Positions 8,986-56,915 of a stretch of 64,000 nt of DNA are shown here, piece after piece. Source of the stretch: Streptomyces sp. NRRL WC-3626. Its GTDB lineage: Bacteria; Actinomycetota; Actinomycetes; Streptomycetales; Streptomycetaceae. The DNA lies in NCBI RefSeq assembly GCF_000718785.1, contig NZ_JOCA01000007.1, positions 62,001-126,000 of the forward strand, in the 5' to 3' direction. The notes beneath the pieces were generated by a model. That model saw only the letters and a program-made list of their open reading frames with translations, had not been told where the DNA came from and made no database searches. Each line of letters starts with the position of its first letter. Positions within the stretch are counted from its first letter, which is position 1. The position numbers were made by a program, and so were the translations under genes.

Positions 8986-10626
8986 ATGACGCTCAACAAC
9001 GGGGCCCCGACGTCCCAGGGCCCAGCCGCGGGGACCGCCCGCAAACCGGGCTACGCGGGGACACTCGCGGCCGCCTGCGGCGCGGTCTTCGTGGCCCAGG
9101 TCGCCAACGCGCTGCCGGCCTCGCTGAACGGCCTCCTCCAGCAGGACCTGAACACCCACGGCTCCCAACTCACCTGGATCACCGCCGCGTTCATGATCGC
9201 CGTGGTCTGCTTCGAGTTCACCTTCGGTGTTCTCGGGGACCTCTTCGGACGACGCAGGCTGGTCGTGGCCGGTACGGCACTGATCGCCGCGGGCAGCACC
9301 GTGGCCGCGCTCGCGCCCGATGTCAGGGTGCTGTGGGTCGGCGCCGCCCTCAACGGCCTCGGCGCCGGCGCCATGTTCCCCGGCTCGCTCACCGCGATCA
9401 GTGCCGTCACCCGCACCGTGCGGGAACGGGCCCACGCGGTGGCGCTCTGGAGCGGCTTCCTGTCCGCCGGTGCCGCCGTGTCCCCCCTGCTCGGCGGCAT
9501 GTTCGCCAAGGTCGGCTCGTGGCGCGGTTCGTTCTGGGTGCTCGTCGCACTCGCCCTGGCCAGTATGGTGCTGACCGCGTCGCTGGCCACGGAGTCGAAG
9601 GCGCCCGAGGGCCGCAGACTCGACGTGCCCGGTCAGATCACCTTCGCCATCGGCCTCGTCCTGGTCCTGTACGGCGCGGTCGAGGGCCCCGAGTCGGGCT
9701 GGACCACGCTGCCCGTGATCCTCGCCTTCGGCATCGGCGCGTGCTTCCTCGCCGCGTTCGTCCTGGTGGAACTGGGCGCCGAGTCCCCCATCTTCGACCT
9801 GAAGCTGTTCCGCAACCGGGCCTTCACCGTGTCGTCCGTCGTCGCGGTCATCGGCATGCTCGCCTTCCTGGGCGCCTGCTTCGCCACGAGCATGTGGCTG
9901 GGTCCGGTACAGCACCAGGACCCGATCCGCGTCGCGGTTCCCTTCCTGCTGCTCCAGGGGCCCGCCTTCCTGCTGATCCCGGTCGTCTCGCGCCTTTTGC
10001 ACCGGGTCGCCGCGACGTGGCTGCTGACCTCGGGATTCGTCCTGATGGCGATCGGCTGTCTGCTGTTCTCCCGGATGGACGTCACCGACACCGGACTCGG
10101 TGCCTTCATCGCGCCTTCCCTGCTGATCGGCACCGGATTCGCCCTGACCGTCAGCTCCGTGACGGCCGTGGCGCTGAACAGCGTGCCGCGGCATCTGGCG
10201 GGCATGGCGAGCGCCACCACCAACATGCTCCGCGACCTCGGTTTCGCGCTCGGTCCCGTCGTGGTCAGCGCGGTCGCCCTCAGCGGCGCCGGCTCGGCGT
10301 TCATGGCGAACCTGCCCGGCGCGGGTCTGAACGGCGGCCAGACGGCCGCGGCACGCGAGATCGCCTCCGCCGGCGGCCCGATCGCCGTGAACAGCCTGCC
10401 GCCCGGCGCCCCGGGCTCCGCCGCGCACGGCGTCGCGCTGGAGGCACTGGGCAGCGGCTTCAGCACCGCGTACCTGGTGTGCGGTGCGGCGGCCGTCGTC
10501 GCCGCCGTGCTGACGGCGTTCGGCATGATCGGTCTCCGCGGCTCGGGCACGACGGAGGACGAGGGATCGGGAGTCCTGCCGTCCTCCTCGGACGGCAGGA
10601 CTCCCGATCCGGTCACCGCCGGCTAA
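8986..10626 (+). CDS. MFS transporter, DHA2 (EmrB/QacA) type
   Basis: About 546 residues with roughly 14 hydrophobic segments. The motif A-like loop is GDLFGRRRLVVAG near residue 85 and a motif C-like GFLSAGAAVSPLLGG lies near 165. The ATG at 8986 has AGGGAG about 8 nt upstream; the frame extends back to 8818 without a better start. The substrate is unknown: DHA2 members export drugs or aromatic compounds by proton antiport. Its closeness to the gentisate regulator may mean export of an aromatic acid, but it has its own long leader. Its last 60 nt contain a very strong hairpin. Confidence 0.85.
   Translation: MTLNNGAPTSQGPAAGTARKPGYAGTLAAACGAVFVAQVANALPASLNGLLQQDLNTHGSQLTWITAAFMIAVVCFEFTFGVLGDLFGRRRLVVAGTALIAAGSTVAALAPDVRVLWVGAALNGLGAGAMFPGSLTAISAVTRTVRERAHAVALWSGFLSAGAAVSPLLGGMFAKVGSWRGSFWVLVALALASMVLTASLATESKAPEGRRLDVPGQITFAIGLVLVLYGAVEGPESGWTTLPVILAFGIGACFLAAFVLVELGAESPIFDLKLFRNRAFTVSSVVAVIGMLAFLGACFATSMWLGPVQHQDPIRVAVPFLLLQGPAFLLIPVVSRLLHRVAATWLLTSGFVLMAIGCLLFSRMDVTDTGLGAFIAPSLLIGTGFALTVSSVTAVALNSVPRHLAGMASATTNMLRDLGFALGPVVVSAVALSGAGSAFMANLPGAGLNGGQTAAAREIASAGGPIAVNSLPPGAPGSAAHGVALEALGSGFSTAYLVCGAAAVVAAVLTAFGMIGLRGSGTTEDEGSGVLPSSSDGRTPDPVTAG
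10564..10610. terminator. 21-bp perfect hairpin inside the 3' end of the MFS gene (bidirectional)
   Basis: Arms 10564-10584 and 10590-10610 are perfectly complementary over 21 bp with a 5-nt TCCTC loop. The hairpin lies wholly inside the MFS coding sequence (residues around GSGVLPSSSDGRTPDP), 16 nt before its stop. It is also 12 nt before the stop of the convergent gene, as seen on the other strand. No U-tract follows, as is common for Streptomyces terminators. Confidence 0.75.
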
Positions 10627-39445: not shown

Positions 39446-40651
39446 TCAGTTGAAGGAGTCGAGGGTCAGGGACGCCTCGCTCGGGTTGCCGTCGTGGACG
39501 AGCGACTCGTGGTTGCCGACGTCGTCGAAGGCGAAGGCGTACGCCTTGCCGTCGGCCATCTGCGCGTGGATGGCGCGCGCGTAGTGGTTGGTGACGGAGT
39601 CCTGGTAGAAGCCGCCGGAGCCGGAGTCCGGCTGGTTGGGGTTGGTCAGGAGCGTGGAGCGGTTGAAGCCCGCGCACAGGGTGCGTGAGATGGGGCCGCG
39701 CACCTGGTCGTTCGGGGCGTCGAGCTTTCGGTGGCAGCCGAAGACGGAGGAGGCGTCCGGCTTCTGGAAGCTGGTGACGACGGCGCCGGAGCCGTTGGTG
39801 AAGTTCATGACGTCACCCGAGACCCGGCCGAAGTACTTGACGCCCGGCTGGTCGGTGAAGGGCGTGACCGTGAGGGTGGAACCGGAGTACTTCTGCCAGA
39901 CCCGGTTGATGTAGTCGTCCATGACCGACGCCGGCAGGGCACCCGTCTCCAGTCCGTACAACGGGGACAGCGCGCGGAGCACGGTGCCGTCGGAGCGGGT
40001 CTGGATCAGGTTGCCCCAGCCCCCGGACCGTCCCCTGAGCGTGTTGAGGACGGCGTTGTAGCCGCCCGCCTTGAGCCTGCCGGTGCTCGTGGTGCCGCCG
40101 TCGGCTCGCCGCACGCCCACGGAGTAGGGCGCGGAGAACATGTCGACCTGGGTGCTGTTGAGCCACAGGCCGGAGTCGTTGAGCGTGTACTCGGACCAGT
40201 TGAAGAGGATGTTCCGGTTGGGGTCCGAGGGGTTCTGCACGGCGGGCTGCACCAGTCCGCCGGTGGTCAGCTTGAACACCAGTTTCTGGCCGTAGGAGAA
40301 GTAGATGCGGCCGGAGAACTTGGGGACGCGGATGGTCGTGGACTGTCCGGCGGCCGGGCCCGTGATCGAGGCGTCGGGTGCGGGGGTGGGCGGGTTGCCG
40401 CCGGCGGGCCAGGGGTGGAAGGTGCCGCTCGCGTCGGCCCAGCCCTGTCTGCCGGTCGACAGCTGGGTGCCGAGGTTGTAGACGTACACCTGCTCGCCGC
40501 GGCCCGAGTTGTTGGTGATCTTGAGGGGGATGGTGTCCGGGACCGCCGCGTGAGCGGTGGACGGCACTCCGGCGGCGAGCAGTGAGCCGCCGAGGACCGT
40601 GGCGATGCTCAACCCGGCCGCCGTGAACCGGCGTTTGAGTGTGCGCAGCAT
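39446..40651 (-). CDS. Secreted GH64 beta-1,3-glucanase (laminaripentaose-producing type)
   Basis: 401 residues. Signal peptide about 1-35 (RRFTAAGLSIATVLGGSLLAAGV ending STAHA). The thaumatin-like GH64 core reads IPLKITNNSGRGEQVYVYNLG, GRIYFSYGQKLVFKLT, FNWSEYTLNDSGLWLNSTQVDMFSAPYSVGV (catalytic acidic residues lie in this stretch in the family), and YHARAIHAQMADGKAYAFAFDDVGNHES-like end. It attacks fungal or algal beta-1,3-glucan outside the cell. A 20-bp palindrome sits 33 nt upstream of the start, so sugar-responsive repression is likely. Confidence 0.92.
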   Translation of the reverse strand: MLRTLKRRFTAAGLSIATVLGGSLLAAGVPSTAHAAVPDTIPLKITNNSGRGEQVYVYNLGTQLSTGRQGWADASGTFHPWPAGGNPPTPAPDASITGPAAGQSTTIRVPKFSGRIYFSYGQKLVFKLTTGGLVQPAVQNPSDPNRNILFNWSEYTLNDSGLWLNSTQVDMFSAPYSVGVRRADGGTTSTGRLKAGGYNAVLNTLRGRSGGWGNLIQTRSDGTVLRALSPLYGLETGALPASVMDDYINRVWQKYSGSTLTVTPFTDQPGVKYFGRVSGDVMNFTNGSGAVVTSFQKPDASSVFGCHRKLDAPNDQVRGPISRTLCAGFNRSTLLTNPNQPDSGSGGFYQDSVTNHYARAIHAQMADGKAYAFAFDDVGNHESLVHDGNPSEASLTLDSFN

Positions 40652-41652: not shown

Positions 41653-41790
41653 ACTGGTATGCCCCAGACCCTAACTGGTTCACCGCACACGGGAGTTCAT
41701 CGCGGAACATCCGCGAGGAGGGTTGACGCCCACATTGGTCTATGCCACCTTCTCCCCACGTCGACTGGTAAGGCCCCGGCGGCAACTGGT
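41653..41790. promoter_or_regulatory. Divergent GntR/GH16 control region with repeated ACTGGT half sites
   Basis: ACTGGT occurs at 41653, 41674, 41764 and 41785, with ATTGGT at 41734. The last belongs to TGGTCTATGCCA (41736-41747), which matches the DasR-type core TGGTCTAGACCA in 10 of 12 bases and lies just after TTGACG (41723-41728), a good -35. This places a GntR site inside the probable GH16 promoter. Confidence 0.6.
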
Positions 41791-41884
41791 CAACCCGACG
41801 ACGGGCCCGGCCGCCACCCCGAGCCCTCGCGGCTCACCGCACCGACGATCCACCGTGCGCCACCCCCACCGCGAAAGGACACGG

Positions 41885-43309
41885 ATGCGTACTCGTCCTC
41901 CCACCGGCCGCCGCACTCGCGCGGCACTCGCGCTGACCGCCCTGCTGGGCAGCGCCGCCCTGGCCGGCCTCCCCGCCACCGCCGTCGCCGCCGACGGCGA
42001 TGTCAGCGTGCAGTACCGCACCAGCGCGAGCGGTGCCACCGCCGACCAGAGCGAGCCCTGGCTCAAGGTCCGCAACACCGGTTCCACGTCGGTGCAGTTG
42101 AGCCAGGTGAAGGTCCGCTACTACTTCAAGGCGGACGCCCCGAACGCCACGTACCGCTTCGCCTGTTCCTGGGCGGTCAGGGGCTGTTCCGCCATCACCG
42201 GCACGTTCGGCACGCTCGCGCACCCCACCGCGACCGCCGACCGCTATCTGGAGATCGGGTTCACCGCGTCCGCCGGTTCGCTGGCACCCGGCGCCGACAC
42301 CGGGGACATGCAGCTGCGCTTCCATCAGTCCAGCTGGCAGACGCTCAAACAGAGCGACGACTACTCCTTCGACGGCACCCGCACCTCGTACGCCGACTGG
42401 AACAAGGTCACCGCCCGGCTCGCCGGTGCCACGGTGTGGGGCACGGCGCCGGAGGGTGACGACCCCACCGATCCCACGGACCCGACCGACCCGCCGGGCG
42501 GCGGTCAGACCCTGTTCGACGACTTCGCCTACACCTCGCACACCGACCCGGCGATCTCCGCGCACGGCTGGAACGTGCGGTCCAACTCCGGCGGCCCCGG
42601 TGTGCCGGGCGCGGCCTGGGACCCGTCCAAGGTGACGTTCAGCTCCTCGGGCGGCAACTCGGTGATGAATCTGGAGACCTCCACCGCCGGCACCGGCGCC
42701 TCCACCACCCACACCGAAGTCCTCACCAAGTCCATGAAGTTCAGGAACGGCACCTACGCCGCCCGGGTGCGGTTCTCCGACGCCCCGAAGTACGGTCCCG
42801 ACGGCGACCGCGTCGTCCAGACCTTCTTCACCATCAACGACCTCAAGGCCCCGATGGCCGACGACTACGCCGAGTACGACTTCGAGTACCTGCCCAACGG
42901 GGGCTGGGGCGAGCCCGCCAACATCCTGTACACGACCTCCTGGGAGACCTACAACCCCGATCCCTGGCAGGCCGTCAACCAGCACAGCGAGAGCCGGCAG
43001 AGCTTCGCCGGCTGGCACGACCTGGTGGTGACGATCGACGACAGCGCCATCACCTACTACGTCGACGGCCGGCACTTCGGCACGCACGACGCCGCGTATC
43101 TGCCGGAGCGTCCGATGTCGATCAACTTCAACCAGTGGCTGATCGACCTCGACGGCCTGACGTCGACCACACCCCGCGCCTACGACCAGCAGGTCGACTA
43201 CGTGCTGCACGTCAAGGACCAGGTGCTCACCCCGGCCCAGGTGACCGCGAGGATCAACGGCTACAGGTCGGCCGGCACGTCCTTCGTGGACGAGGTGCCC
43301 GCGTCCTGA
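41885..43309 (+). CDS. Secreted GH16-like glucanase with N-terminal CBM3-like module
   Basis: 474 residues. Signal peptide about 1-36. A CBM3-like domain at about 38-190 (VSVQYRTSASGATADQSEPWLKV, RYYFKADAPNATY, WAVRGCSAITGTFG). Linker of Pro-Thr-Asp repeats at 195-207. GH16 domain at about 210-455 with the catalytic motif E-Y-D-F-E at residues 330-334 (both Glu present). GH16 enzymes cut beta-1,3(4)-glucans or related glycans; the subgroup cannot be fixed by eye. The ATG at 41885 has AAAGGA 6 nt upstream. Next to a GntR gene and divergent from it. Confidence 0.85.
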   Translation: MRTRPPTGRRTRAALALTALLGSAALAGLPATAVAADGDVSVQYRTSASGATADQSEPWLKVRNTGSTSVQLSQVKVRYYFKADAPNATYRFACSWAVRGCSAITGTFGTLAHPTATADRYLEIGFTASAGSLAPGADTGDMQLRFHQSSWQTLKQSDDYSFDGTRTSYADWNKVTARLAGATVWGTAPEGDDPTDPTDPTDPPGGGQTLFDDFAYTSHTDPAISAHGWNVRSNSGGPGVPGAAWDPSKVTFSSSGGNSVMNLETSTAGTGASTTHTEVLTKSMKFRNGTYAARVRFSDAPKYGPDGDRVVQTFFTINDLKAPMADDYAEYDFEYLPNGGWGEPANILYTTSWETYNPDPWQAVNQHSESRQSFAGWHDLVVTIDDSAITYYVDGRHFGTHDAAYLPERPMSINFNQWLIDLDGLTSTTPRAYDQQVDYVLHVKDQVLTPAQVTARINGYRSAGTSFVDEVPAS

Positions 43310-43348: not shown

Positions 43349-43448
43349 CGGACTTCTCCCCGCGTTCACGCGATCTTTCCCGGGGTCTTCCGCCGGCGAG
43401 CCCGAGGGGCTGAACTGTAGGGCGCGGCCCGCACACGGGCCATGTCCG

Positions 43449-43490: not shown

Positions 43491-46400
43491 ATGCGCAACG
43501 CCACCACCCCCCGTCCGCCGACGCCTCCGCCGGGCCGGCGCAGACTGCTCACCGCCGCGCTGATCCTCGGCACCCTGGTCGCCGGACTCACGCCCGTGAC
43601 GAGCGCCGCCGCGAAGGGCCGCGACATCGCCGCCTTCGACGCCGTGGACCCGTTCATCGGCACCCGCCTCGACACGTCCCAGAACAAGGGGAACAGCGCG
43701 TACGGCAACACCTATCCGGGCGCCACGGTGCCCTTCGGCATGGTGCAGTCCTCCCCCACCACGTACCGCTCCTCGGACGGGGACCAGAAGGGCGGGTACG
43801 AGTACACGGCGGACAGGATCCGGGGCTTCGGCATGACCCGGCTCTCCGGGACCGGCTGCGAGGGCCGGTTCAGCGGCTTCGACTTCCCCGTCCTGCCCTA
43901 CACCGGCGAACTCAGCGGCGGCGCCCTGCCGTCCAGCCCGGCGGAGAAGGTCACCGACTACCACGTCGGCTTCGACCACGCCGACGAGAAGGCCGACCCC
44001 GGCTACTACTCGGTGGACCTCGCAAACGGCGTGGAGACGGAGCTGACCGCCACCACCCGCACCGCCGTGAGCCGCTTCGACTTCCCCTCGGACGGCGGCT
44101 CGACGCTGCTGTTCGATGTGGCCGGTTCGAACAACCGGGTCTTCGGCAGCGAGGTGGAGGTCGACGGCGACACGGTCAGCGGCTGGGTGGAGACGGCCTC
44201 GGTGTGCGACGAGGGCGGGCGCTACCGCGCCTACTTCTCGACCACGTTCGACCGGCCGGTGAAGGCTCACGGCACCTGGCAGGGCTCCGACGTACGGCCG
44301 GGTTCGGCCGGGGCGTCCGGTGGCGGCACCAAGCACGGGGCGGGCGCCTACCTCGTCTTCGAACGGGGCGCCGAGGTCACCGCGAAGACCGGCCTCAGCT
44401 ATGTGAGCGTCGCGGGCGCGGCACGCAACGCGGCGACCGAGACCCGCGGCCAGAGCTTCGACGATGTCCGCGCGCAGGCGGCCCGCGTATGGCGCAACGC
44501 GCTCGGCACGGTGGACGCGGACGGCGGCAGCCGGGACGAACGGGTGAAGTTCTACACCGCGCTCTACCACGCGCTGCTGCACCCGAACGTCTTCGACGAC
44601 GTGAGCGGCGAGTACCGGGGCTACGACGGTGAGGTCCGCCGGGTCGCCAAGGGCCGCCACCATTACGTCACCTACGCGGGCTGGGACACGTACCGCAGTC
44701 AGGCGCAGCTGGTGGCGCTGCTGTTCCCGGAGGTCGGCAGCGACATCAACCAGTCGATCACCGACATGGTGCGGCAGACCGGCAGCTGGCCCAACTGGCC
44801 GCATCTGAACCAGACGCAGCAGAAGATGAGCGGTGACTCGCTGCAGTCCGTGGTCGCCTCCATCGACGCGTTCGGCGGCACGGACTACGACCGCCGGGCC
44901 GCACTGGAGTCGATGAAGTCGACGCAGGACCTGCCCGCCGACTCCACACTGAGGCGGCACGCCTACCAGTACGCCACGGTGGGCTTCATCGAGAACCGCA
45001 AGGGGGACTCGGCGACGTCGAAGACGCTCGAGTACGCCGTGGACGACTTCGGTATCGCGCAGCTCGCCCGGCGTCTCGGTGACGAGGAGACGTACGACCG
45101 CTACATGGTGCGGGCGCAGAACTGGCAGAACGTGTTCGACGACGCCGGTGACCACATCCGCCCGCGGGACCGTACGGGCTTCGACCGGGGCTTCGATCTC
45201 GGGCAACGGGGTGACCAGTTCGAGCAGGCCACCGGCTACCAGTACGGCTGGATGGTCCCGCACAACGTGGGCGCGCTCATCGAGAAGCGGGGCGGTACCG
45301 AGGCCACCACCAGGGCCCTCGACGACCACACCCGTGAACTCGACGCCGGGGTGTACAACACCTCGGGCGCGTATCTGAGCAACCAGCCCAGCTTCACCAT
45401 GCCGTTCGTCTACAACTGGCTGCGGCAGCCGCACCGTACGGCGGACGTGCTGCGCCGTGCCGTGGACGAGATGTACGACACCACGCCCTCGGGGCTGCCC
45501 GGAAACGACGACCTCGGTTCGCTGAGCAGCTGGTACGTGTGGGCGAACATCGGACTGTTCCCCGCCGTTCCGGGCACCGCCGATCTCGTCGTGAGCGGCC
45601 CGATGTTCGACCGGGTCGTGGTGGACAGCGCCGACAGCCGGCGGCGGATCGTCCTCGACGCGCCGCGGGCCGGCGAGGCGCCGTACGTGAGCTCGCTGAA
45701 GGTGAACGGCCGTACCACCACGCGCTCCTGGCTCCCCGCCGACTTCACCCGCACGGGCGGCAAGCTGAGTTTCCGTATGTCGGCGAGGCCCGGCACATGG
45801 GGCACGCGGGCGGGCGACGTGCCGCCGTCGCACACGGACGGCACGGACGCCCGGAACAGCATCGGCAGCACCCCCGACGGCCGGGGGAACCTCGGCTCCC
45901 TCGACCTCAGTGACAACTCCCTGTCCCGGGAGCGGCTGGCCGAGGCCGGGGCGGCGCCGGGCGCGAGGCTCGAACTGGGCGACACCGGAATCGAGTTCAC
46001 CTGGCCGGACACCGGGCCGGGTCAGCCCGACAACTGGATTCCGCACGGCCAGCGCATCCGAATGGACGGGAAGCCCGCGACCGGGATCTCCTTCCTGGGC
46101 CTGGCCACCAACGGCCCCTCGCAGGGCACGGCGGTGGTGGAGTACACCGACGGATCGACGCAGTCGGTGCCGGTGCGGTTCACCGACTGGACCCCGGGGA
46201 CGAACTACCAGTTCGGTAACGAGCCGTTGGTGACCACCACGGGACGCAACCGGGCGGCGGGCGGCAACGACACCGTGCAGACCAAGGTGTTCGCCACGCG
46301 TCCGCAACTGCTGGACCCGGCGAAGCGGGTGGCCGCCGTCGTCCTGCCGCAGGGCACCGACCGGGGCGTCATGCATGTCTTCGACGTGGCGCTCACCGAC

Positions 46401-47795
46401 AACCCGGAACTGGAGGTGCCCGGTTCGGCCCCGGAGCGGATCGTCCTGACGCCGACGGAGAAGCCCGGGACGTCCCAGGCGGTCACCTGGCGTACGGCGG
46501 CGGCGTTCACCTCCGGCGAGGTGCGGGTCCGCGAGTCCGGCACCGGGCAGTGGCGGACCGTGGCCGCACGCGCCAACGAGGAGCTGACCTCGGACGGTGA
46601 GCGGACACGCACGCACTCCGCGGTCGTCGACCGCCTCTCCCCCGGCACCGAGTACGAGTACCGGGTGGGCACCGGTGACCGGTTCAGTCCCGTGTACCGG
46701 TTCACCACCGCCCGGCCCGCCGGTGAGGAGTTCACCTTCCTCTACTTCGGCGACGCGCAGAACGACCTGTCGGCGAAGTGGGCCCCGGTGGTGAAGCAGG
46801 CGTACGCGCGCTATCCCGACGCCGTAGGCAGCGTCAACGCCGGTGACCTGGTCAACTCCTCGGGCAACGACAGCGAGTGGCGCGACTGGTTCGGGGCGAT
46901 GGACGGCTTCAGCCAGACGACCAACGTCATCGCCGCGCCCGGCAACCACGAGTACTCCGGGGACACCTTCCTCAAGACGTGGAAGTCGACCTTCGAGTAC
47001 CCGGACAACGGTCCGAGCGCCGCCCCGGCCGCCGGGGACACCCCCGCCGAGCGACAACGTGCCGCGTACGAGGCGCACATGGCGAGGGCGCTCGCCGAGA
47101 CGGCGTACTACACCGACTACCAGGGCGTACGGTTCATCTCCCTCAACGCGAGCACGGGTGACGCCCGTTCGCTGATGACACCGGACGACCTCCCGGAGTG
47201 CGGCGAGAACTGCCCGGACCCGGAGAAGCTCTGGCTCGGCATGCAGGGCCGCTGGCTGGACCACGTCCTCGAAAGCAATCCCGGCGGATGGGCGGTCGCG
47301 GTGTTCCACCAGCCGGTGTTCTCCGGGGCCGAGGGGCGCGACGAGAAGGCGGTGCGTGACGCCTGGCTGCCGGTGTTCCAGCGCGGCGACATCGACCTGG
47401 TGCTGATGGGCCACGACCATGTGTACGCCCGCGGATACGTCGACTCCGACGCCACCGCCACGCCCGGCGTGACCACCGGCCCGGTGTACACGGTCGCCGT
47501 GTCGGGGCCGAAGTACTACGAGGAGGCTCCCGGGGACGACAACGTGTGGACCCGCAACGGGGCGACCCAGGTGGTGCGCGCGGGACACACCTCCACGTTC
47601 CAGGGGATCAGGGTCACCGGGGACACGATCCGCTACGAGTCGGTGGTCGCCGCCAAGTGGGACGACCGGTCCACCACGGACAAGGAGCCCGGCGACGTAC
47701 TGGACTCCTTCACCATCACCAAGTACGACGACGGCACGAAGTACGTGACCGAGGACGGGGTGCCCGTGCCGCCGGCCCCGGCCGCCCGTCGCTGA
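43491..47795 (+). CDS. Secreted GH92 alpha-mannosidase-like / purple acid phosphatase-like fusion
   Basis: 1434 residues. Twin-Arg-like signal (PGRRRLLTAALILGTLVAG). GH92 domain at about 48-790: DPFIGT, SGTGCEGRFSGFDFP, YAGWDTYRSQAQLVALLFPE and GNDDLGSLSSWYVW with Asp673/674, the expected base region. At the place where GH92 glycosidases have the acid Glu (EGNAWQY-type) the sequence reads EQATGYQY, putting Gln579 at that position. About 800-970 is a beta-sandwich-like region (WPDTGPGQPDNWIPHGQ). About 975-1080 is an FN3-like PAP N-domain. A metallophosphoesterase at 1084-1340 has all metal motifs: GD at 1087-1088, GDL, GNHE 1151-1154, VFHQP, GHDH 1307-1310. Likely role: removal of capping mannose and then phosphate from phosphomannans. 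No frameshift was seen across the junction. Confidence 0.88.
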   Translation: MRNATTPRPPTPPPGRRRLLTAALILGTLVAGLTPVTSAAAKGRDIAAFDAVDPFIGTRLDTSQNKGNSAYGNTYPGATVPFGMVQSSPTTYRSSDGDQKGGYEYTADRIRGFGMTRLSGTGCEGRFSGFDFPVLPYTGELSGGALPSSPAEKVTDYHVGFDHADEKADPGYYSVDLANGVETELTATTRTAVSRFDFPSDGGSTLLFDVAGSNNRVFGSEVEVDGDTVSGWVETASVCDEGGRYRAYFSTTFDRPVKAHGTWQGSDVRPGSAGASGGGTKHGAGAYLVFERGAEVTAKTGLSYVSVAGAARNAATETRGQSFDDVRAQAARVWRNALGTVDADGGSRDERVKFYTALYHALLHPNVFDDVSGEYRGYDGEVRRVAKGRHHYVTYAGWDTYRSQAQLVALLFPEVGSDINQSITDMVRQTGSWPNWPHLNQTQQKMSGDSLQSVVASIDAFGGTDYDRRAALESMKSTQDLPADSTLRRHAYQYATVGFIENRKGDSATSKTLEYAVDDFGIAQLARRLGDEETYDRYMVRAQNWQNVFDDAGDHIRPRDRTGFDRGFDLGQRGDQFEQATGYQYGWMVPHNVGALIEKRGGTEATTRALDDHTRELDAGVYNTSGAYLSNQPSFTMPFVYNWLRQPHRTADVLRRAVDEMYDTTPSGLPGNDDLGSLSSWYVWANIGLFPAVPGTADLVVSGPMFDRVVVDSADSRRRIVLDAPRAGEAPYVSSLKVNGRTTTRSWLPADFTRTGGKLSFRMSARPGTWGTRAGDVPPSHTDGTDARNSIGSTPDGRGNLGSLDLSDNSLSRERLAEAGAAPGARLELGDTGIEFTWPDTGPGQPDNWIPHGQRIRMDGKPATGISFLGLATNGPSQGTAVVEYTDGSTQSVPVRFTDWTPGTNYQFGNEPLVTTTGRNRAAGGNDTVQTKVFATRPQLLDPAKRVAAVVLPQGTDRGVMHVFDVALTDNPELEVPGSAPERIVLTPTEKPGTSQAVTWRTAAAFTSGEVRVRESGTGQWRTVAARANEELTSDGERTRTHSAVVDRLSPGTEYEYRVGTGDRFSPVYRFTTARPAGEEFTFLYFGDAQNDLSAKWAPVVKQAYARYPDAVGSVNAGDLVNSSGNDSEWRDWFGAMDGFSQTTNVIAAPGNHEYSGDTFLKTWKSTFEYPDNGPSAAPAAGDTPAERQRAAYEAHMARALAETAYYTDYQGVRFISLNASTGDARSLMTPDDLPECGENCPDPEKLWLGMQGRWLDHVLESNPGGWAVAVFHQPVFSGAEGRDEKAVRDAWLPVFQRGDIDLVLMGHDHVYARGYVDSDATATPGVTTGPVYTVAVSGPKYYEEAPGDDNVWTRNGATQVVRAGHTSTFQGIRVTGDTIRYESVVAAKWDDRSTTDKEPGDVLDSFTITKYDDGTKYVTEDGVPVPPAPAARR

Positions 47796-47883: not shown

Positions 47884-48636
47884 ATGGGTGCGAGCCCGAC
47901 GCTCATCACCTCGGTGCAGCGGGCCTTCCGGCTGCTGGAGGCGGCGAGCGCCCATCGCAACGGCGCGCCGGCGAAACAGCTGGCACGGGAGACGGGTCTG
48001 CCCCTGGCCACGGCCTACCATCTGCTGCGCACGCTGGTGCACGACGGCTATCTGCGCAAGCTGGACGACGGCGGCTTCGTCCTGGGCGAGCGGGTCCAGG
48101 GCCTGCACACCGCGGGCAGCGGGCAGGCGCTGCTCAGCAGGGTCCGGCCGGCTCTCGCCGCGCTGCGGGACGAACTGTCCAGCGCCGCCTACCTCACCTT
48201 CTACGAGGACGGCGAGATCCGTGTCGCCGAGATCGTGGACGGCCCCCGCAGCCCGCGCGCCGAGCTGTGGGTGGGGTTCGAGGACGCCGGGCACGCCACC
48301 GCGCTCGGCAAGTCGGTGCTCCGGGAGCTCGACGAGGAGGCCCGCAGGGAGTACCTCTCCCGGCACCCGCTCCACGATCTCACCCCGCGGACGATCACCA
48401 CGGCCCCGGAGCTGATCCGCCGGCTGGAGACCGGCACGCTGGCCCCGGCCGTCACGGACGTGGAGGAGTACGCCCTGGGCATCGTCTGTGTCGCGGTGCC
48501 GGTGTACAGCGGGGACACCCTGGGCTCGCTCGGCGTCTCCATGCCGAAGGACCGGTCGCACCGGCTCGACGAGGTGCGGGAGCGCCTGCTGCCGGCGGCC
48601 GGGCGGGTGACCCGGGGGCTGTCGCTCACTATCTGA
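47884..48636 (+). CDS. IclR-family transcriptional regulator
   Basis: 250 residues. HTH at about 8-65 (SVQRAFRLLEAASAHRNGAPAKQLARETGLPLATAYHLL), IclR effector domain at about 80-250 (AELWVGFEDAGHATALGKSVLRELDEEARREYL, EYALGIVCVAVPVYSGDTLGSLGVSMP). The start ATG is 42 nt after the GH92 terminator. Unlike the 7989 regulator it is not divergent from a metabolic gene, so its target is unclear; such orphans are common in Streptomyces. Confidence 0.88.
   Translation: MGASPTLITSVQRAFRLLEAASAHRNGAPAKQLARETGLPLATAYHLLRTLVHDGYLRKLDDGGFVLGERVQGLHTAGSGQALLSRVRPALAALRDELSSAAYLTFYEDGEIRVAEIVDGPRSPRAELWVGFEDAGHATALGKSVLRELDEEARREYLSRHPLHDLTPRTITTAPELIRRLETGTLAPAVTDVEEYALGIVCVAVPVYSGDTLGSLGVSMPKDRSHRLDEVRERLLPAAGRVTRGLSLTI

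Positions 48637-49882: not shown

Positions 49883-49886
<4 letters not shown>
48738..49886 (+). CDS. Membrane-anchored SpoIIE/PP2C phosphatase
   Basis: About 382 residues. Three or four N-terminal hydrophobic segments (ALSVLVVCVVVFVDLV, VWLPLLAAGPALAAA, ALFVVLAALVTVALAGALASAL) precede a SpoIIE domain at about 150-375 (ARIGGDLYALIPTPYGVRVIVGDVRGKGL, LVNCGHAPPLLI, LLFYTDGVTEARD, LHDDAALLLLR). Alternative ATGs at 48705 and 48738 exist; neither has a strong ribosome site and I chose 48738 (GGA 6 nt upstream). It likely dephosphorylates an anti-sigma antagonist. The stop overlaps the convergent GH1 stop by 4 nt. Confidence 0.85.
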
Positions 49887-51262
<1,376 letters not shown>

Positions 51263-51293: not shown

Positions 51294-52121
51294 TCACTTG
51301 ACGGAGCCGCCGGAGATGCCGGCGGCGATGTACTTCTGGGCGAGGACGAGCAGGATCGCGGCCGGGACGGCGGAGAGCACGGACGCGGCCATCACGGAGC
51401 CCCAGTCGCCGACGTGGGCGCCGATGTACTGGTAGATGCCCAGCGTGATCGGCTTGACGTCGTCGGTGGTGTTCAGGGTGAGCGCGAACATGAAGTCGCT
51501 CCACGAGAACAGGAACGCGAACAGGCCGGAGGTGATCAGCGAGTTGCGGCTCATCGGCAGCACCACCCGCAGGAACACCCGTACCGGACCGGCCCCGTCG
51601 ATCTCGGCGGCCTCGATGACCTCGCCCGGGATGGACACCATGAAGGAGCGCATCAGGACGATGGAGAACGGGATGCCGAGGGAGGCGTCCGCGAGCATCA
51701 GGCCGAAGTAGGAGTTCACCAGGCCGAGGTCGACGTACGAGTTGTAGAGCGCGTTGGCGATGACGATGCCCGGCACCATCTGGGTGATCAGGGTGCCGAA
51801 CACGATGGTGCGGGAGCCGCGCAGCCCGAACCGGGCCAGTCCGTAGGCCGCCGGTGCGGAGATCGCCAGGCAGACGGCGACGGCCCCGAACGAGACCAGC
51901 AGCGAGGTCAGCAGATGACCGCCCTGGTCGCTGAGGGCCTTGGAGAACCCGGACAGGTCCACCCCGGAGGGCACCGGGTCGACCTGGAGCAGGCCCGACT
52001 CGGGCTGGAGCGCGGTGTTGAGCATCCAGTACAGCGGGAACAGCATCACGCCCAGGATCAGCACACCGGCGACGGTGGAGCCCCAGCGGCGCCGGGACGC
52101 GGTGGGAGTGTGAGCGGCCAT
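51294..52121 (-). CDS. Sugar ABC transporter permease (MalG type)
   Basis: About 275 residues, six membrane segments. The EAA loop is VIEAAEIDGAGPVRVFLRVVLP near residue 185, the C-terminus AQKYIAAGISGGSVK is typical of CebG/MalG-like permeases. ATG 52121 lies 5 nt after the stop of the companion permease. It belongs to a carbohydrate uptake 1 family importer. No ATPase gene is in the cluster; Streptomyces importers of this kind share the MsiK ATPase encoded elsewhere. Confidence 0.92.
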   Translation of the reverse strand: MAAHTPTASRRRWGSTVAGVLILGVMLFPLYWMLNTALQPESGLLQVDPVPSGVDLSGFSKALSDQGGHLLTSLLVSFGAVAVCLAISAPAAYGLARFGLRGSRTIVFGTLITQMVPGIVIANALYNSYVDLGLVNSYFGLMLADASLGIPFSIVLMRSFMVSIPGEVIEAAEIDGAGPVRVFLRVVLPMSRNSLITSGLFAFLFSWSDFMFALTLNTTDDVKPITLGIYQYIGAHVGDWGSVMAASVLSAVPAAILLVLAQKYIAAGISGGSVK

Positions 52122-52126
52122 CTCGG

Positions 52127-53080
52127 TCACTTCCCCTCGGTGCGGTTGGCCCGCAGGTAGAACACCGCGAACACCGCGGAGATGAGAATGAGGACGTTGC
52201 CGACGACCGCGCCGGCGCCGAAGTCCAGTTCCACGAAGGAGTTCTGGTAGGTGAGGGTGCCCAGGGTCTGGGTGGCGTCGGCGGGCCCGCCGTCGGTGAG
52301 GGCGAGGATCAGGTCGAGGATCTTGACCGTCGACATGAAGCCCAGCACCAGGACGACCGTGATCACGGGCTTGAGCATCGGCAGGGTGATGGACCGGAAG
52401 GTCCGCCAGGCGGAGGCGCCGTCCAGGGAGGCGGCCTCGTACAGCTCCCTGGGGATCTCCTGGAGGCCGCCGTACAGGATGACCATGTTGAACGGGATGC
52501 CGATCCAGATGTTGACCAGGATCACCGAGAGCAGTGCCATGTCGGGGCTGGTCAGCCAGGGGGTGTGACCGCCGAGGCCGAGGGTGTCGAGGAAGGTGTT
52601 GAGTACGCCGGTGTCCTGGTCGAGGATGCGGCGCCACACGATGCCGGACACCACCATGGGCACCAGCCAGGGCAGCAGGATCAGTGACCTGAGGACGCCG
52701 CCGAGGGGGAACCTGCGGTTGAAGAAGACGGCGAGGGCGAGGCCGACGCAGAACTGGCCGAGCAGGGAGCCGGCGGTGAAGACGAGGGTGTGCCACAGCG
52801 CCTGGCCGAAGAGGACGTCCTGGAAGACGGACGACCAGTTGTCGGCACCGTTGAAGGGGGCCTCGCCGGTGAAGAACGTCTTCGGCGTGTAGTGCTGGAA
52901 GCTCATCACGATGTTGCGGACGAGCGGGTAGCCGAAGAACAGCAGCATGAAGACGACGGCGGGGGCGACGAAGCCCCACTGCGCCAGTCTGCGGCGCAGG
53001 CGCTGCCGGGCCGGGTCCGGTCCGGCGGACTTCCCGGAGGTCTTCGCGGGCACCGGGGCGGTGACGGTGGACGTGGTCAT
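52127..53080 (-). CDS. Sugar ABC transporter permease (MalF type)
   Basis: About 317 residues, six membrane segments (WGFVAPAVVFMLLFFGYPLV at the start). EAA loop ELYEAASLDGASAWRTFRSITLP near 220. A cytoplasmic N-terminal tail of about 35 residues precedes the first helix. ATG 53080 is used; the further upstream frame is antisense noise over the binding-protein 3' end. Partner of the MalG-type permease. Confidence 0.92.
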   Translation of the reverse strand: MTTSTVTAPVPAKTSGKSAGPDPARQRLRRRLAQWGFVAPAVVFMLLFFGYPLVRNIVMSFQHYTPKTFFTGEAPFNGADNWSSVFQDVLFGQALWHTLVFTAGSLLGQFCVGLALAVFFNRRFPLGGVLRSLILLPWLVPMVVSGIVWRRILDQDTGVLNTFLDTLGLGGHTPWLTSPDMALLSVILVNIWIGIPFNMVILYGGLQEIPRELYEAASLDGASAWRTFRSITLPMLKPVITVVLVLGFMSTVKILDLILALTDGGPADATQTLGTLTYQNSFVELDFGAGAVVGNVLILISAVFAVFYLRANRTEGK

Positions 53081-53090
53081 GGCGCGTACC

Positions 53091-54350
53091 TCAGTTTCCG
53101 CTCGTGGCGCGCTGCTGGGCGCGTTGCAGGGCGGTTTCGCTGGACTGGCCGGTGAGGGCGGACTGGAAGGCGCTCTGCAGGGCGAGGGAGACGCCCGACC
53201 AGCCAGCACCGAGCTTCGCGGTGCGGGACCGGGCGGCGGCGACCTGGTCGGCCAGCGCGTCGAGTTCGGGCACCTTCGCGCGCCACTTCGCGGCGGCCTT
53301 CTCGTTGGCGGGGACCATCCAGCTGTTCAGGGCGTAGGTGAGCTGTTCCTTCTCGCTCGCCAGACAGTCGACGATCCGTCCCGCCGTCCTCTCGCGCCCG
53401 GTGTCGCCGGTGTTGGGCACGGTGAGGACGGCGCCGCCCAGCGGGCCCACCGAGTCGGCGCCCGCCTCGGGGACGGGGATCTGCGCGATCTCCCAGTGCA
53501 GGGACTTGTCCGTGTTGAGGGTCTCGACCTGCCACGGGCCGTTGATCATCATCGCGGCGTTCCCGGCCATGAACTGGTCGTTCACATCGGCCTGGGTCCA
53601 GTTGACCGTGGACTTGGACAGCGACCCGTCCTGCAGCAGCGCCTTCCAGTAGTCGAGCGCCTCCACGACCTGGGGGCCGTCGAGGTCCGACTCGTCGCCG
53701 CCGTTGGACCACATGAACGGAGTGAACTGGAAGACGCCGTCCTCGGCTCCGCCCGCGCTGAGCGCCAGGCCGTACCGCTTGCCCTCGGTGAGCTTCTTCG
53801 CCGCCGCGCGCATCTCGTCCCAGGTGGTGGGCACCGGTACGCCCGCCTCGTCGAGGATGTCCTTGTTGTAGAAGAGCGCGAGCGTGTTCACGGAGCGGGC
53901 CGCGCCGTAGTACGTGCCCCGGTAGGAGCCGAAGTCGACGATGCCCTGGGGGATGTCGTCGGTGGCGAGCCCCAGGGCGCGCAGGTCGACGAGCCCTCCG
54001 GCGTCGGCGAAGGTCGGCATCTCGGAGGCGTCGAACTGCACGATGTCCGGCAGCGACTTCGACGACGCCATGCGCAGCGCCTTCGTCATGACCTGTGAGG
54101 CGGGGACGCTCTGCTGCTCGATGGTGACGCCCAGCCGCTCGCCGCAGCGGGCCATCGCCTCGGCGTCCCAGCGGTGGTAGGTCTCGTCGGTCGAGGAGTT
54201 CATCACGGTGTACACGTCGCTGTCGCGCTGCTCCGCGCAGCCGGTCAGCGCCGCTCCGGCGATGAGGACGGAGACGGCGGCGAACGACGTGACGGCTCCG
54301 CGCGAGCGTCCGAGCGCGCGGTGTGCGGCAGCCGGAGGATGTGCTGTCAC
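53091..54350 (-). CDS. Sugar ABC transporter solute-binding lipoprotein
   Basis: 419 residues. Lipoprotein signal with LTGC (Cys 38), then a SBP_bac_1 type two-lobed binding protein (SSKSLPDIVQFDASEMPTFADAG, LALFYNKDILDEAGVPVPTTWDEMRAAAKKL, AAMMINGPWQVETL). The start is a GTG without a strong ribosome site. Ends 10 nt before the MalF-type gene. By context with GH31 alpha-xylosidase and GH1 beta-glucosidase, the ligand may be a xyloglucan or related gluco-oligosaccharide. Confidence 0.9.
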   Translation of the reverse strand: MTAHPPAAAHRALGRSRGAVTSFAAVSVLIAGAALTGCAEQRDSDVYTVMNSSTDETYHRWDAEAMARCGERLGVTIEQQSVPASQVMTKALRMASSKSLPDIVQFDASEMPTFADAGGLVDLRALGLATDDIPQGIVDFGSYRGTYYGAARSVNTLALFYNKDILDEAGVPVPTTWDEMRAAAKKLTEGKRYGLALSAGGAEDGVFQFTPFMWSNGGDESDLDGPQVVEALDYWKALLQDGSLSKSTVNWTQADVNDQFMAGNAAMMINGPWQVETLNTDKSLHWEIAQIPVPEAGADSVGPLGGAVLTVPNTGDTGRERTAGRIVDCLASEKEQLTYALNSWMVPANEKAAAKWRAKVPELDALADQVAAARSRTAKLGAGWSGVSLALQSAFQSALTGQSSETALQRAQQRATSGN

Positions 54351-54644: not shown

Positions 54645-56915
54645 ATGAAATTCACTGACGGTTTCTGGCGCATCCGCGAGGGCGTCCAGATCTCGTACGC
54701 GACCGAAGTGCGTGATGTACGCCCGGAATCGAAGCGCTTCACCGGGTATGCCGCGGTGAAGAAAGTGACCCGCAGGGGCGACACCCTCAACGCGCCGCTG
54801 ATCACGGTCGAGTGCTTCTCCCCCGCCGAGGGTGTGATCGGCGTCCGGGTCACCCATCACGCGGGCAAGTACCGGCCGGGTCCCGACTTCGTCCTCACCG
54901 GGGACGAGGGCGGCGCGGGCGCGGTGAGCGCGGACGGTTCCGTCACCGGGCTGACCAGCGGTCCCCTGACCGTGCGGCTGGACGGGTCCGGTCCCTTCGG
55001 GCTCTCCTTCCATGACGCGGACGGGCGGGAACTGACCCGCGCCGGCGCCAAGAGCACCGCCTTCGCCACCACCGACGGGGGCGCCCACCATGTGCTGAGC
55101 CGGCTGTCGCTGGGTGTCGGTGAGCAGATCTACGGTCTGGGCGAGCGGTTCACGCCGTTCGTCAAGAACGGCCAGACCGTCGACGTGTGGCAGGCGGACG
55201 GCGGCACGAGCAGCGAACAGGCGTACAAGAACGTCCCGTTCTATCTCTCCTCGCGCGGCTACGGCGTCTTCGTCAACCACCCGGGCGCCGTCTCCTTCGA
55301 GGTCGGCTCCGAGTCCGTCGGGCAGGTGCAGTTCAGCGTCGAGGACCAGGCGCTCGAGTACTACGTCATCGCCGGGCCGACTCCGAAGGAGGTCCTCGGC
55401 CGCTACACGGCCCTGACCGGCCGTCCGGCCCTGCCGCCGGCCTGGTCGTTCGGCCTGTGGCTCAGTACCTCTTTCACCACGTCGTACGACGAGGCGACGG
55501 TGACGTCGTTCGTCGACGGCATGGCCGAGCGGGGCATCCCGCTGTCGGTGTTCCACTTCGACTGCTTCTGGATGCGCGAGTACCAGTGGTGCGACTTCCA
55601 GTGGGACCCGGACGTCTTCCCCGATCCGGAGGGCATGCTGGCCCGCCTCAAGGAGAAGGGGCTGCGGATCAGCGTCTGGATCAACCCGTACATCGCGCAG
55701 AAGTCCCCGCTCTTCGACGAGGCAGCGGCCCTCGGCCACCTGGTGCGCCGGGCGAACGGCGATGTGTGGCAGTGGGACCTGTGGCAGGCGGGCATGGGGC
55801 TGGTCGACTTCACCAGCCCGGACGCGCGCGCGTGGTTCCAGTCGAAGCTCAAGCCGCTGCTCGACCAGGGCGTCGACACCTTCAAGACGGACTTCGGCGA
55901 GCGCATCCCCACCGATGTCGTCTGGCACGACGGCTCCGACCCGGAGCGGATGCACAACTACTACACCCACCTCTACAACCGGACCGTGTTCGAGCTTCTG
56001 GAGAAGGAGCGCGGGCAGGGTGAGGCGGTGCTGTTCGCCCGGTCCGCGACCGCGGGCGGTCAGCAGTACCCGGTGCACTGGGGCGGCGACTGCTGGTCGT
56101 CCTTCGAGGCGATGGCCGAGTCGCTGCGCGGCGGTCTGTCGCTGTCGCTGAGCGGGTTCGGCTTCTGGAGCCACGACATCGGCGGCTTCGAGGGCACGCC
56201 CGACCCGGCGGTCTTCAAGCGCTGGCTGGCCTTCGGCCTGCTGTCCTCGCACAGCAGGCTGCACGGCTCGACGTCGTACCGGGTGCCGTGGGAGTTCGGC
56301 GACGAGGCGGTGGACGTCGCCCGTCGGTTCACCCTGCTCAAGCACCGCCTGATGCCGTACCTGTACGGCGCCGCCGCCGAGGCCCGGCGCACCGGCGTGC
56401 CGATGATGCGGCCGATGGTGCTGGAGTTCCCCGGGGACCCGGCGTGCCGCCCGCTCGACCGCCAGTACATGCTGGGCGGGGATCTGCTGGTCGCGCCGGT
56501 CTTCGACGAGGACGGCGAGGTGGAGGTGTACCTCCCGGAGGGCACCTGGACGCATCTGCTGAGCGGCGAGCGCGTCACCGGCCCGTGCTGGCGCACCGAA
56601 CGGCACGGCTACGACAGTCTTCCGCTGTACATCCGTGAGGGCGCCGTACTCGCCCTGTCCGCCGACGACTCCCGCCCCGACGCCGACTGGCTCGCCGCTC
56701 CGGTCCTGCTGGTCCACCCCCCGGCCGCGTCCGACTACGCGGCCGAGGTCACGATCCCGGACATGACAGGCCTGCCGGCCGCGACGTTCCGGGTCCGCCG
56801 GGACGGCGACAGCCTGCGCGTCACGGCGTCGGACACCGACCGCCCGTTCACGGTGCGGCTCCCCGGCGGGACGGAGGCCCGGGGCACGGGCGAGGTGACC
56901 TTGCGGATGGGGTGA
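54645..56915 (+). CDS. GH31 alpha-xylosidase (YicI-like)
   Basis: 756 residues, no signal peptide, same length range as E. coli YicI (772). Nucleophile Asp416 in FKTDFGER and acid/base Asp482 in HWGGDCWSS fall at exactly the numbering of YicI's Asp416 and Asp482. FHFDCFWMREYQWCDFQWDPDVFPDPEGM is the YicI-type substrate loop, and SHDIGGFEGTPD follows. It should release alpha-xylose from isoprimeverose or xyloglucan oligosaccharides in the cytoplasm. ATG 54645 follows GAGGAAG. Divergent from the ABC importer. Confidence 0.92.
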   Translation: MKFTDGFWRIREGVQISYATEVRDVRPESKRFTGYAAVKKVTRRGDTLNAPLITVECFSPAEGVIGVRVTHHAGKYRPGPDFVLTGDEGGAGAVSADGSVTGLTSGPLTVRLDGSGPFGLSFHDADGRELTRAGAKSTAFATTDGGAHHVLSRLSLGVGEQIYGLGERFTPFVKNGQTVDVWQADGGTSSEQAYKNVPFYLSSRGYGVFVNHPGAVSFEVGSESVGQVQFSVEDQALEYYVIAGPTPKEVLGRYTALTGRPALPPAWSFGLWLSTSFTTSYDEATVTSFVDGMAERGIPLSVFHFDCFWMREYQWCDFQWDPDVFPDPEGMLARLKEKGLRISVWINPYIAQKSPLFDEAAALGHLVRRANGDVWQWDLWQAGMGLVDFTSPDARAWFQSKLKPLLDQGVDTFKTDFGERIPTDVVWHDGSDPERMHNYYTHLYNRTVFELLEKERGQGEAVLFARSATAGGQQYPVHWGGDCWSSFEAMAESLRGGLSLSLSGFGFWSHDIGGFEGTPDPAVFKRWLAFGLLSSHSRLHGSTSYRVPWEFGDEAVDVARRFTLLKHRLMPYLYGAAAEARRTGVPMMRPMVLEFPGDPACRPLDRQYMLGGDLLVAPVFDEDGEVEVYLPEGTWTHLLSGERVTGPCWRTERHGYDSLPLYIREGAVLALSADDSRPDADWLAAPVLLVHPPAASDYAAEVTIPDMTGLPAATFRVRRDGDSLRVTASDTDRPFTVRLPGGTEARGTGEVTLRMG

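Follow-up and report, generated by a model that had tools for sequence, protein, structure and literature searches.

Why should an apparently secreted bacterial protein carry, on one chain, a mannosidase-family domain that seems to have lost its general acid and a phosphatase? The question is raised by a gene in a 64,000-nucleotide stretch of Streptomyces sp. NRRL WC-3626 (contig NZ_JOCA01000007.1, positions 62,001 to 126,000; hereafter the window, whose numbering we use). The gene encodes a fusion of a glycoside hydrolase family 92 (GH92) region, a beta-sandwich and a phosphatase resembling the purple acid phosphatases (PAPs), behind an N-terminus that looks by eye like a secretion signal. 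A reading made from the sequence alone had proposed that the first domain takes the capping mannose off the mannose-phosphate-mannose groups of fungal walls and that the second removes the phosphate so exposed. Among the sequences compared here this interpretation is supported as the best one: we consider it probable (about 0.68) that the protein is a secreted one-chain phosphomannan processor, in which GH92 uncaps and the phosphatase then releases phosphate.

A glutamine at the acid position of GH92

The fusion reading frame and the residue numbers E578, Q579 and GNDD 671-674, as claimed in the sequence-only reading, were confirmed by translation. The chain is laid out as follows; the GH92N, GH92, Pur_ac_phosph_N and Metallophos matches are each above the Pfam curated cut-off.

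43491..47795, + strand: GH92 / beta-sandwich / PAP-like phosphatase fusion, 1434 amino acids; open frame from the ATG at 43491 to a stop ending at 47795
43644..44399, + strand: GH92 N-terminal beta-sandwich domain, residues 52-303 (PF17678, GH92N; E 5.7e-60, 203.5 bits)
44415..45782, + strand: GH92 catalytic domain, residues 309-764 (PF07971; E 2.4e-129, 432.8 bits)
45219..45245, + strand: motif FEQATGYQY, residues 577-585, in which Gln579 (45225-45227) replaces the general acid Glu in alignments
45501..45518, + strand: motif GNDDLG, residues 671-676, with Asp674 the counterpart of the BT3990 base Asp644
45858..46415 (approximate), + strand: beta-sandwich linking both enzymes, residues about 790-975 (Foldseek match to 7wuw, AziU3/U2, E 6.5e-11; query, a model of residues 780-1425)
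46431..46709, + strand: phosphatase N-terminal (FN3-like) domain, residues 981-1073 (PF16656, Pur_ac_phosph_N; E 9.8e-19)
46749..47426, + strand: metallophosphoesterase domain, residues 1115-1312 (Pfam Metallophos; E 3.4e-12)

The first region has the GH92 fold. It is Gln579, and not Glu578, that HMMER aligns with the catalytic Glu of BT3130, BT3990, BT2199 and 7zgm, and MAFFT agrees, so that the placement of Gln at the acid site was borne out. The general acid of BT3990 is Glu533; Gln579 stands at the equivalent site, and the fusion thus lacks the acid Glu of the GH92 alpha-mannosidases (residues assigned in PMC10167667, PMC5930347 and PMC12858847). The base side had been described as intact, which holds in part: GNDD is present and Asp674 corresponds to the base Asp644 of BT3990 (PMC12858847, PMC10167667), but the counterpart of BT3990 Asp642 is Asn672, as in BT3130 and BT3965, leaving Asp674 as the sole match. 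The exo-alpha-mannosidases BT3990, BT3130, BT3965 and NnGH92 share the fold and the base Asp with the fusion and differ in having Glu as general acid.

We compared the query with the best 120 of its 887 matches, a Gln-clade set of 121 sequences. Gln579 is invariant in 121/121, as is GNDD (671-674), which includes the base Asp674. Residue 578 is N in 60, E in 49, D in 10 and H in 2, a variability that rules out Glu578 as the general acid. Since Gln is never replaced within these 121 sequences, mere decay of the acid site is disfavoured. Phosphorylase-like chemistry was set aside because the acid has changed and the base has not. When the acid of BT3990 was changed to Gln, efficiency on alpha-1,2-mannobiose was reported to be strongly reduced, with slight activity left (PMC10167667), a loss that would follow if Gln is suited to leaving groups able to depart without a proton.

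Elsewhere in the family the acid Glu prevails. A separate search with Glu-type queries gave Glu at the acid position in 120/120 listed proteins (120 of 1705 matches), and the two other GH92s of the same genome also have Glu. A scan of loci yielded 109 GH92 sequences, 106 of them distinct, with Glu in 88, Gln in 16 and a gap in 2. All 16 Gln sequences, some of which are pieces of one gene, belong either to this clade or to the type of CcMan5, an enzyme of Cellulosimicrobium cellulans. Among 392 Streptomyces species sampled, 15 carried a GH92 like that of the window (E<=1e-250; 62-100% identity); Gln was found in 15/15 and the phosphatase in 11/15.

The Gln attributed to a Cellulosimicrobium enzyme is indeed there: Gln occupies the acid position in a GH92 of C. 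cellulans NBRC 15516 (1669 bits against 4aq0), as it does in seven more CcMan5-type proteins from other genomes (8/8 in total). CcMan5 (CcGH92_5; PDB 2xsg/4aq0), which differs from the fusion in bearing CBM6 carbohydrate-binding modules and, in C. cellulans, no phosphatase, is reported to target Man-PO4-Man diesters (PMC5930347), and its use in uncapping has been described (PMC9246025). The fusion lies outside this lineage, although the Gln is common to both. In a GH92 tree of 56 rows, built with the acid-position column removed, the two Gln groups each formed one clade and were not joined; forced joining was rejected (approximately unbiased (AU) test, p 0.00086). The single shared origin of Gln with CcMan5 is therefore rejected, and the change from Glu to Gln occurred twice, in parallel in this clade and in the CcMan5 lineage. 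Most lineage-specific residues of the present clade differ from CcMan5. Residues shared with CcMan5 were also considered as phosphate ligands, and the only columns common to both Gln lineages yet rare in the Glu sample were Q579 and T581; since many 'EGT' sequences of the Glu type have T581 as well, we propose no residue as a phosphate ligand.

The phosphatase and its coupling to GH92

All five motifs of the metallophosphoesterase that had been read on the same chain were located (GDAQ 1087, GDLV 1118, GNHE 1151, FHQP 1272 and GHDH 1307). The metal ligands D1088, D1119, N1152, H1273, H1308 and H1310 are invariant in 41/41 aligned sequences, the window's included, and the full set of dinuclear-metal ligand motifs (GD, GD, GNH, H, GHxH) is present. 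The FN3-like domain noted earlier exists, but it belongs to the phosphatase as its N-terminal domain (PF16656); at E<=0.001 it is the only match to that family in the whole genome. A model of the phosphatase (pLDDT 92.2) has purple acid phosphatases as its best structural matches, and the PAP N-terminal domain, the metallophosphoesterase domain and the PAP fold are thus all present. A single-sequence search of the PDB with the phosphatase half gave no match at E 0.001; profile and fold searches did match. The PAP motif GDxxY carries a tyrosine that is absent in the fusion (GDLVN, Asn1122), and we therefore call the domain PAP-like. Plant PAPs (kidney bean, wheat phytase) have the fold and the metal-ligand motifs in common with the fusion, which differs from them by Asn1122 and by its GH92 partner. 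Among the PAP-like relatives (120 of 214 listed), actinobacterial proteins without GH92 come as close as 62-71% identity to the fusion's phosphatase module. These nearest kin (P0122-P0158, P0140 and P0142 among them) are from Microbacteriaceae and others; some are named LPXTG-anchored, and some exceed 1900 amino acids and have Ig-like domains.

The GH92-PAP architecture recurs in many actinobacteria. Its phosphatase modules fall into group A, to which the window's protein belongs, group B (43-49% identical to A) and group C (25-29% identical to A). Judging by this divergence, type C was very probably acquired independently of A/B; type-C proteins not on a GH92 chain were few in the sample (those of loci L101 and L102). 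In a tree of A/B modules, stand-alone proteins lie between A and B, and the stand-alone group comes together in 0% of 200 bootstrap trees; one common origin for modules A and B is not rejected (AU p 0.271), and the two may go back to one acquisition. A GH92 tree with 65 Gln-clade rows requires 14 changes between the fused and the unfused state. Of 296 genomes belonging to the class, 80 have GH92; PF16656 and GH92 share one frame in at least three of those (the genome of the window, G215 and G181) and lie in adjoining frames in at least one (G190). G215, G181 and G190 have Gln at position 579, like the genome of the window. One further selection behind the counts kept 80 of 574.

The sequence-only reading implied that Gln and the phosphatase would go together. 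A PAP-like metallophosphatase, of two or three widely divergent types, is carried by 63/121 listed Gln-clade proteins versus a type A-C module on 0/120 listed (of 1705) Glu-type proteins, which speaks for an association; the one-to-one match failed. From the sequences compared, phosphatase and Gln appear linked by lineage, and loosely. Around Glu-type genes, a type A-C module was found in 0/71 loci (1.42 Mb), in a search that covered types A-C and one PAP2 probe. In the CcMan5 lineage, 2/8 proteins, both from Streptomyces, are fused to a phosphatase of the PAP2 superfamily, whose fold is unrelated and which shows PSGH and HYPLD motifs. The two proteins (L104:8481-15506 and L105:7988-14641) carry a CcMan5-type GH92, CBM6, FN3 and a C-terminal PAP2 on one chain of more than 2200 codons; like the fusion they join a Gln-type GH92 to a phosphatase, and they differ from it in the PAP2 fold and in their GH92 lineage.

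Around CcMan5-type genes we sought types A-C, plus Pfam domains of chosen neighbours. At L101:5114-14183 a CcMan5-type GH92 gene has directly upstream of it, on the same strand, a type-C phosphatase gene that itself encodes a CBM6. The phosphatase stop is about 230 bp before the first recognisable GH92 residues (8992, in another frame), and the GH92 gene is frame-broken near 9246-9255 in the assembly. In L102 about 4.7 kb, including opposite-strand genes, separates the CcMan5-type gene from a type-C gene upstream of it.

Upstream of the fusion gene we found a repeat resembling a phosphate-control site:

43353..43385, + strand: candidate PHO box (putative PhoP site), three imperfect 11-nucleotide units, CTTCTCCCCGC GTTCACGCGAT CTTTCCCGGGG, ending 105 bp upstream of the ATG

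The units have 2, 1 and 3 mismatches to GTTCACC, the PHO-box core of S. coelicolor (PMC4415409), and when the upstream region was shuffled 500 times, 0.4% of the shuffles reached the three-unit score. A two-unit site (<=3 mismatches) precedes 9/12 phosphatase-bearing Streptomyces genes, the window's included, versus 1/6 phosphatase-less ones, the background rate in random 310-bp windows being 2.6%. For genes with and without the phosphatase a one-sided Mann-Whitney test gave p 0.004 and Fisher's test p 0.043; neither value takes the relatedness of the genes into account. The stricter three-unit shuffle test (<=1% of shuffles) was passed by 6/12 genes with and 1/6 without the phosphatase. In this comparison L011 was left out as the same contig as L127, judged by length and upstream sequence, and L129, whose match has an internal stop, is among the six. 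The syntenic phosphatase-less genes show degenerate repeats at the aligned place. Taken together, the PHO-box-like site is suggestive, though not proof, of phosphate control by PhoP. Such repeats also stand upstream of the phosphatase-bearing genes in L150, L120, L123, L128 and L005.

Weighing a phosphomannan processor against other explanations

In the reaction that we favour, the GH92 domain would take the capping alpha-mannose off mannose-alpha-1-phosphate-6-mannose diesters of fungal (yeast-type) mannan. Asp674 as base would activate a water molecule for attack on the anomeric carbon of the capping mannose, and the leaving group, a phosphate monoester on the mannan, would depart without a proton donor; as such a monoester is a good leaving group, the general acid would be dispensable and Glu could give way to Gln. 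The PAP-like domain would next cleave the exposed mannose-6-phosphate, the products being free mannose and inorganic phosphate. The substrate, which reaction comes first, the passage from one domain to the other and regulation by phosphate are each something we infer. In Bacteroides thetaiotaomicron the equivalent two steps are reported to be carried out by GH38 and separate phosphatases (PMC10154615). That yeast-mannan system follows the same logic, phosphate-linked mannose coming off before the phosphate, and differs in its separate proteins, in the glycosidase family employed and in working after uptake into the cell. When S. lavendulae preys on yeast, transcripts of a secreted GH92 are reported to rise about 16-fold (PMC13170338), so a fungal-feeding setting is plausible. 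On a broader scale, fungus-eating actinobacteria may have evolved one-chain phosphomannan phosphate miners more than once and from unrelated parts: two GH92 lineages would have exchanged Glu for Gln and so turned into uncappers of mannosyl phosphodiesters, distantly related metallophosphatases would then have joined one and PAP2 the other, and in Streptomyces a PHO box would switch on the phosphatase form when phosphate runs short and decay where the phosphatase is missing. For this wider scenario we see the odds as evenly balanced.

Several observations weigh against the processor. Among the 121 listed Gln-clade members, 58 have no phosphatase on the chain and all 58 keep Gln, whose presence is thus independent of the phosphatase. 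Three loci (L143, L144 and L007) have the same gene order as the window and no phosphatase match, their frames running to 1007, 1038 and 1016 codons and their GH92 domains being 85% identical, and the coupling is therefore not needed; set beside the window and L137, where nearby gene order is conserved and the phosphatase present, they reveal a whole domain gained or lost in place, a natural pair with and without it. In 4/8 cases, C. cellulans included, no type A-C phosphatase was seen within the fetched 19 kb around the CcMan5-type gene, where PAP2 was not sought, and in both loci from Cellulosimicrobium (2/71) two paired Glu-type GH92s have a PAP2 match next to them. The PHO site is missing in 3/12 phosphatase-bearing genes, in a comparison whose counts are small and whose genes are related. 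The phosphatase could act on other phosphate esters, and the activity of Gln-clade enzymes is itself what we infer from sequence.

This looseness would be accounted for if GH92 uncapped mannosyl phosphodiesters and the phosphatase were a general secreted scavenger of phosphate, fused for co-secretion near fungal debris. The phosphatase toggles among close relatives, as the 14 changes on the GH92 tree indicate, it is missing in place at the three syntenic loci, PAP-like proteins 62-71% identical to it occur without GH92, and a PHO-box-like site would suit any phosphatase. We nevertheless regard a mere scavenger as rather unlikely, given that unrelated phosphatase folds have been joined to both Gln lineages and that none of the 120 listed Glu-type GH92s carries the metallophosphatase. 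It is also conceivable that the Gln-type GH92 cuts some other activated alpha-mannosyl bond, such as that of mannosyl-1-phosphate units in the wall polymers of bacteria or in fungal glycans distinct from yeast N-mannan, and that the phosphatase removes the resulting phosphate ends; loss of the acid implies only a good leaving group, the Gln clade is widespread in actinobacteria and most of its lineage-specific residues are unlike CcMan5. The syntenic beta-glucanase neighbours and the genome's genes for GH76, a family of endo-alpha-1,6-mannanases, indicate fungal walls instead, and make such a different bond improbable.

That the Gln-type GH92 works as a normal or an impaired alpha-mannosidase, or serves only as a mannan-binding module keeping the phosphatase on the wall, would agree with the slight activity reported for BT3990 Gln variants (PMC10167667) and with a purified mannosidase of the yeast-preying S. 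lavendulae, which may or may not be of Gln type and is reported inactive on the mannan tested (PMC13170338). Yet GNDD and Gln are both invariant in 121/121 listed sequences, 58 listed members have no phosphatase to hold, and CcMan5, with Gln, is reported to be active (PMC5930347); we give this explanation very little credence.

If the phosphomannan processor is right, one secreted protein probably joins two steps that a well-studied gut bacterium splits among separate enzymes. Gln at one position might then serve as a sequence rule by which mannosyl-phosphodiester hydrolases could be picked from the large GH92 family, in which CcMan5 is the only enzyme of that kind named in those parts of the literature that were compared. 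Uncapping of Man-P-Man is a step in producing mannose-6-phosphate glycans for lysosomal enzymes from yeast (PMC5992200, PMC9246025); the phosphatase-less Gln members (58/121 listed) are candidate tools for it, and the phosphatase-bearing ones would remove the phosphate too. The findings also suggest that soil bacteria draw phosphate, and not sugar alone, from fungal walls, an idea directly open to test in the natural pairs that differ in the phosphatase at a single locus. Among the matches listed from the open-licence literature, we found no description of a GH92-phosphatase fusion; the sole paper there with both 'GH92' and 'purple acid phosphatase' was a Metarhizium genome paper.

Neighbouring genes and related loci

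The genes around the fusion are these:

39446..40651, - strand: GH64 beta-1,3-glucanase (PF16483, E 1.3e-109), at the same position in L137, L143, L144 and L007
40760..41605, - strand: GntR/UTRA regulator (Pfam and synteny)
41723..43309, + strand: protein with a family 3 carbohydrate-binding module (CBM3), the next upstream gene, start uncertain (PF00942, E 1.1e-22)
47884..48636, + strand: IclR-type regulator, the next downstream gene (Pfam and synteny)
49883..51262, - strand: GH1 beta-glucosidase (Pfam and synteny)
51294-54350, - strand: sugar ABC transporter genes, adjoining GH1
54645-56915, + strand: GH31, a neighbour

The C-terminal half of the CBM3 protein has no GH16 Pfam match; by eye, from its EYDFE motif, we take it to be GH16-like. 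The same genome holds two GH76 matches, one GH38 and two Glu-type GH92s.

Some related loci deserve mention. In C. cellulans (L015:13433-19337) two Glu-type GH92 genes are followed by a PAP2 gene 60% identical to the fused PAP2 of L104, its open reading frame beginning about 28 bp past the second GH92; in L073 a tblastn match places PAP2 at the same spot. A 2029-codon frame in L111, considered as a further fusion, proved to be a Glu-type GH92 with carbohydrate-binding and PKD-like domains and no phosphatase. In Phytoactinopolyspora endophytica (L012 / L108) GH92 is read in one frame and the phosphatase in another that overlaps it, through a frame break or sequencing error. Finally, paired PAP N-terminal matches separated by about 2 kb on the same strand, in open frames of differing length, occur at G268:C2:1411-3743, G139:C8:1861-4310 and G220:C1:153437-155613, and are probably tandem phosphatase genes.

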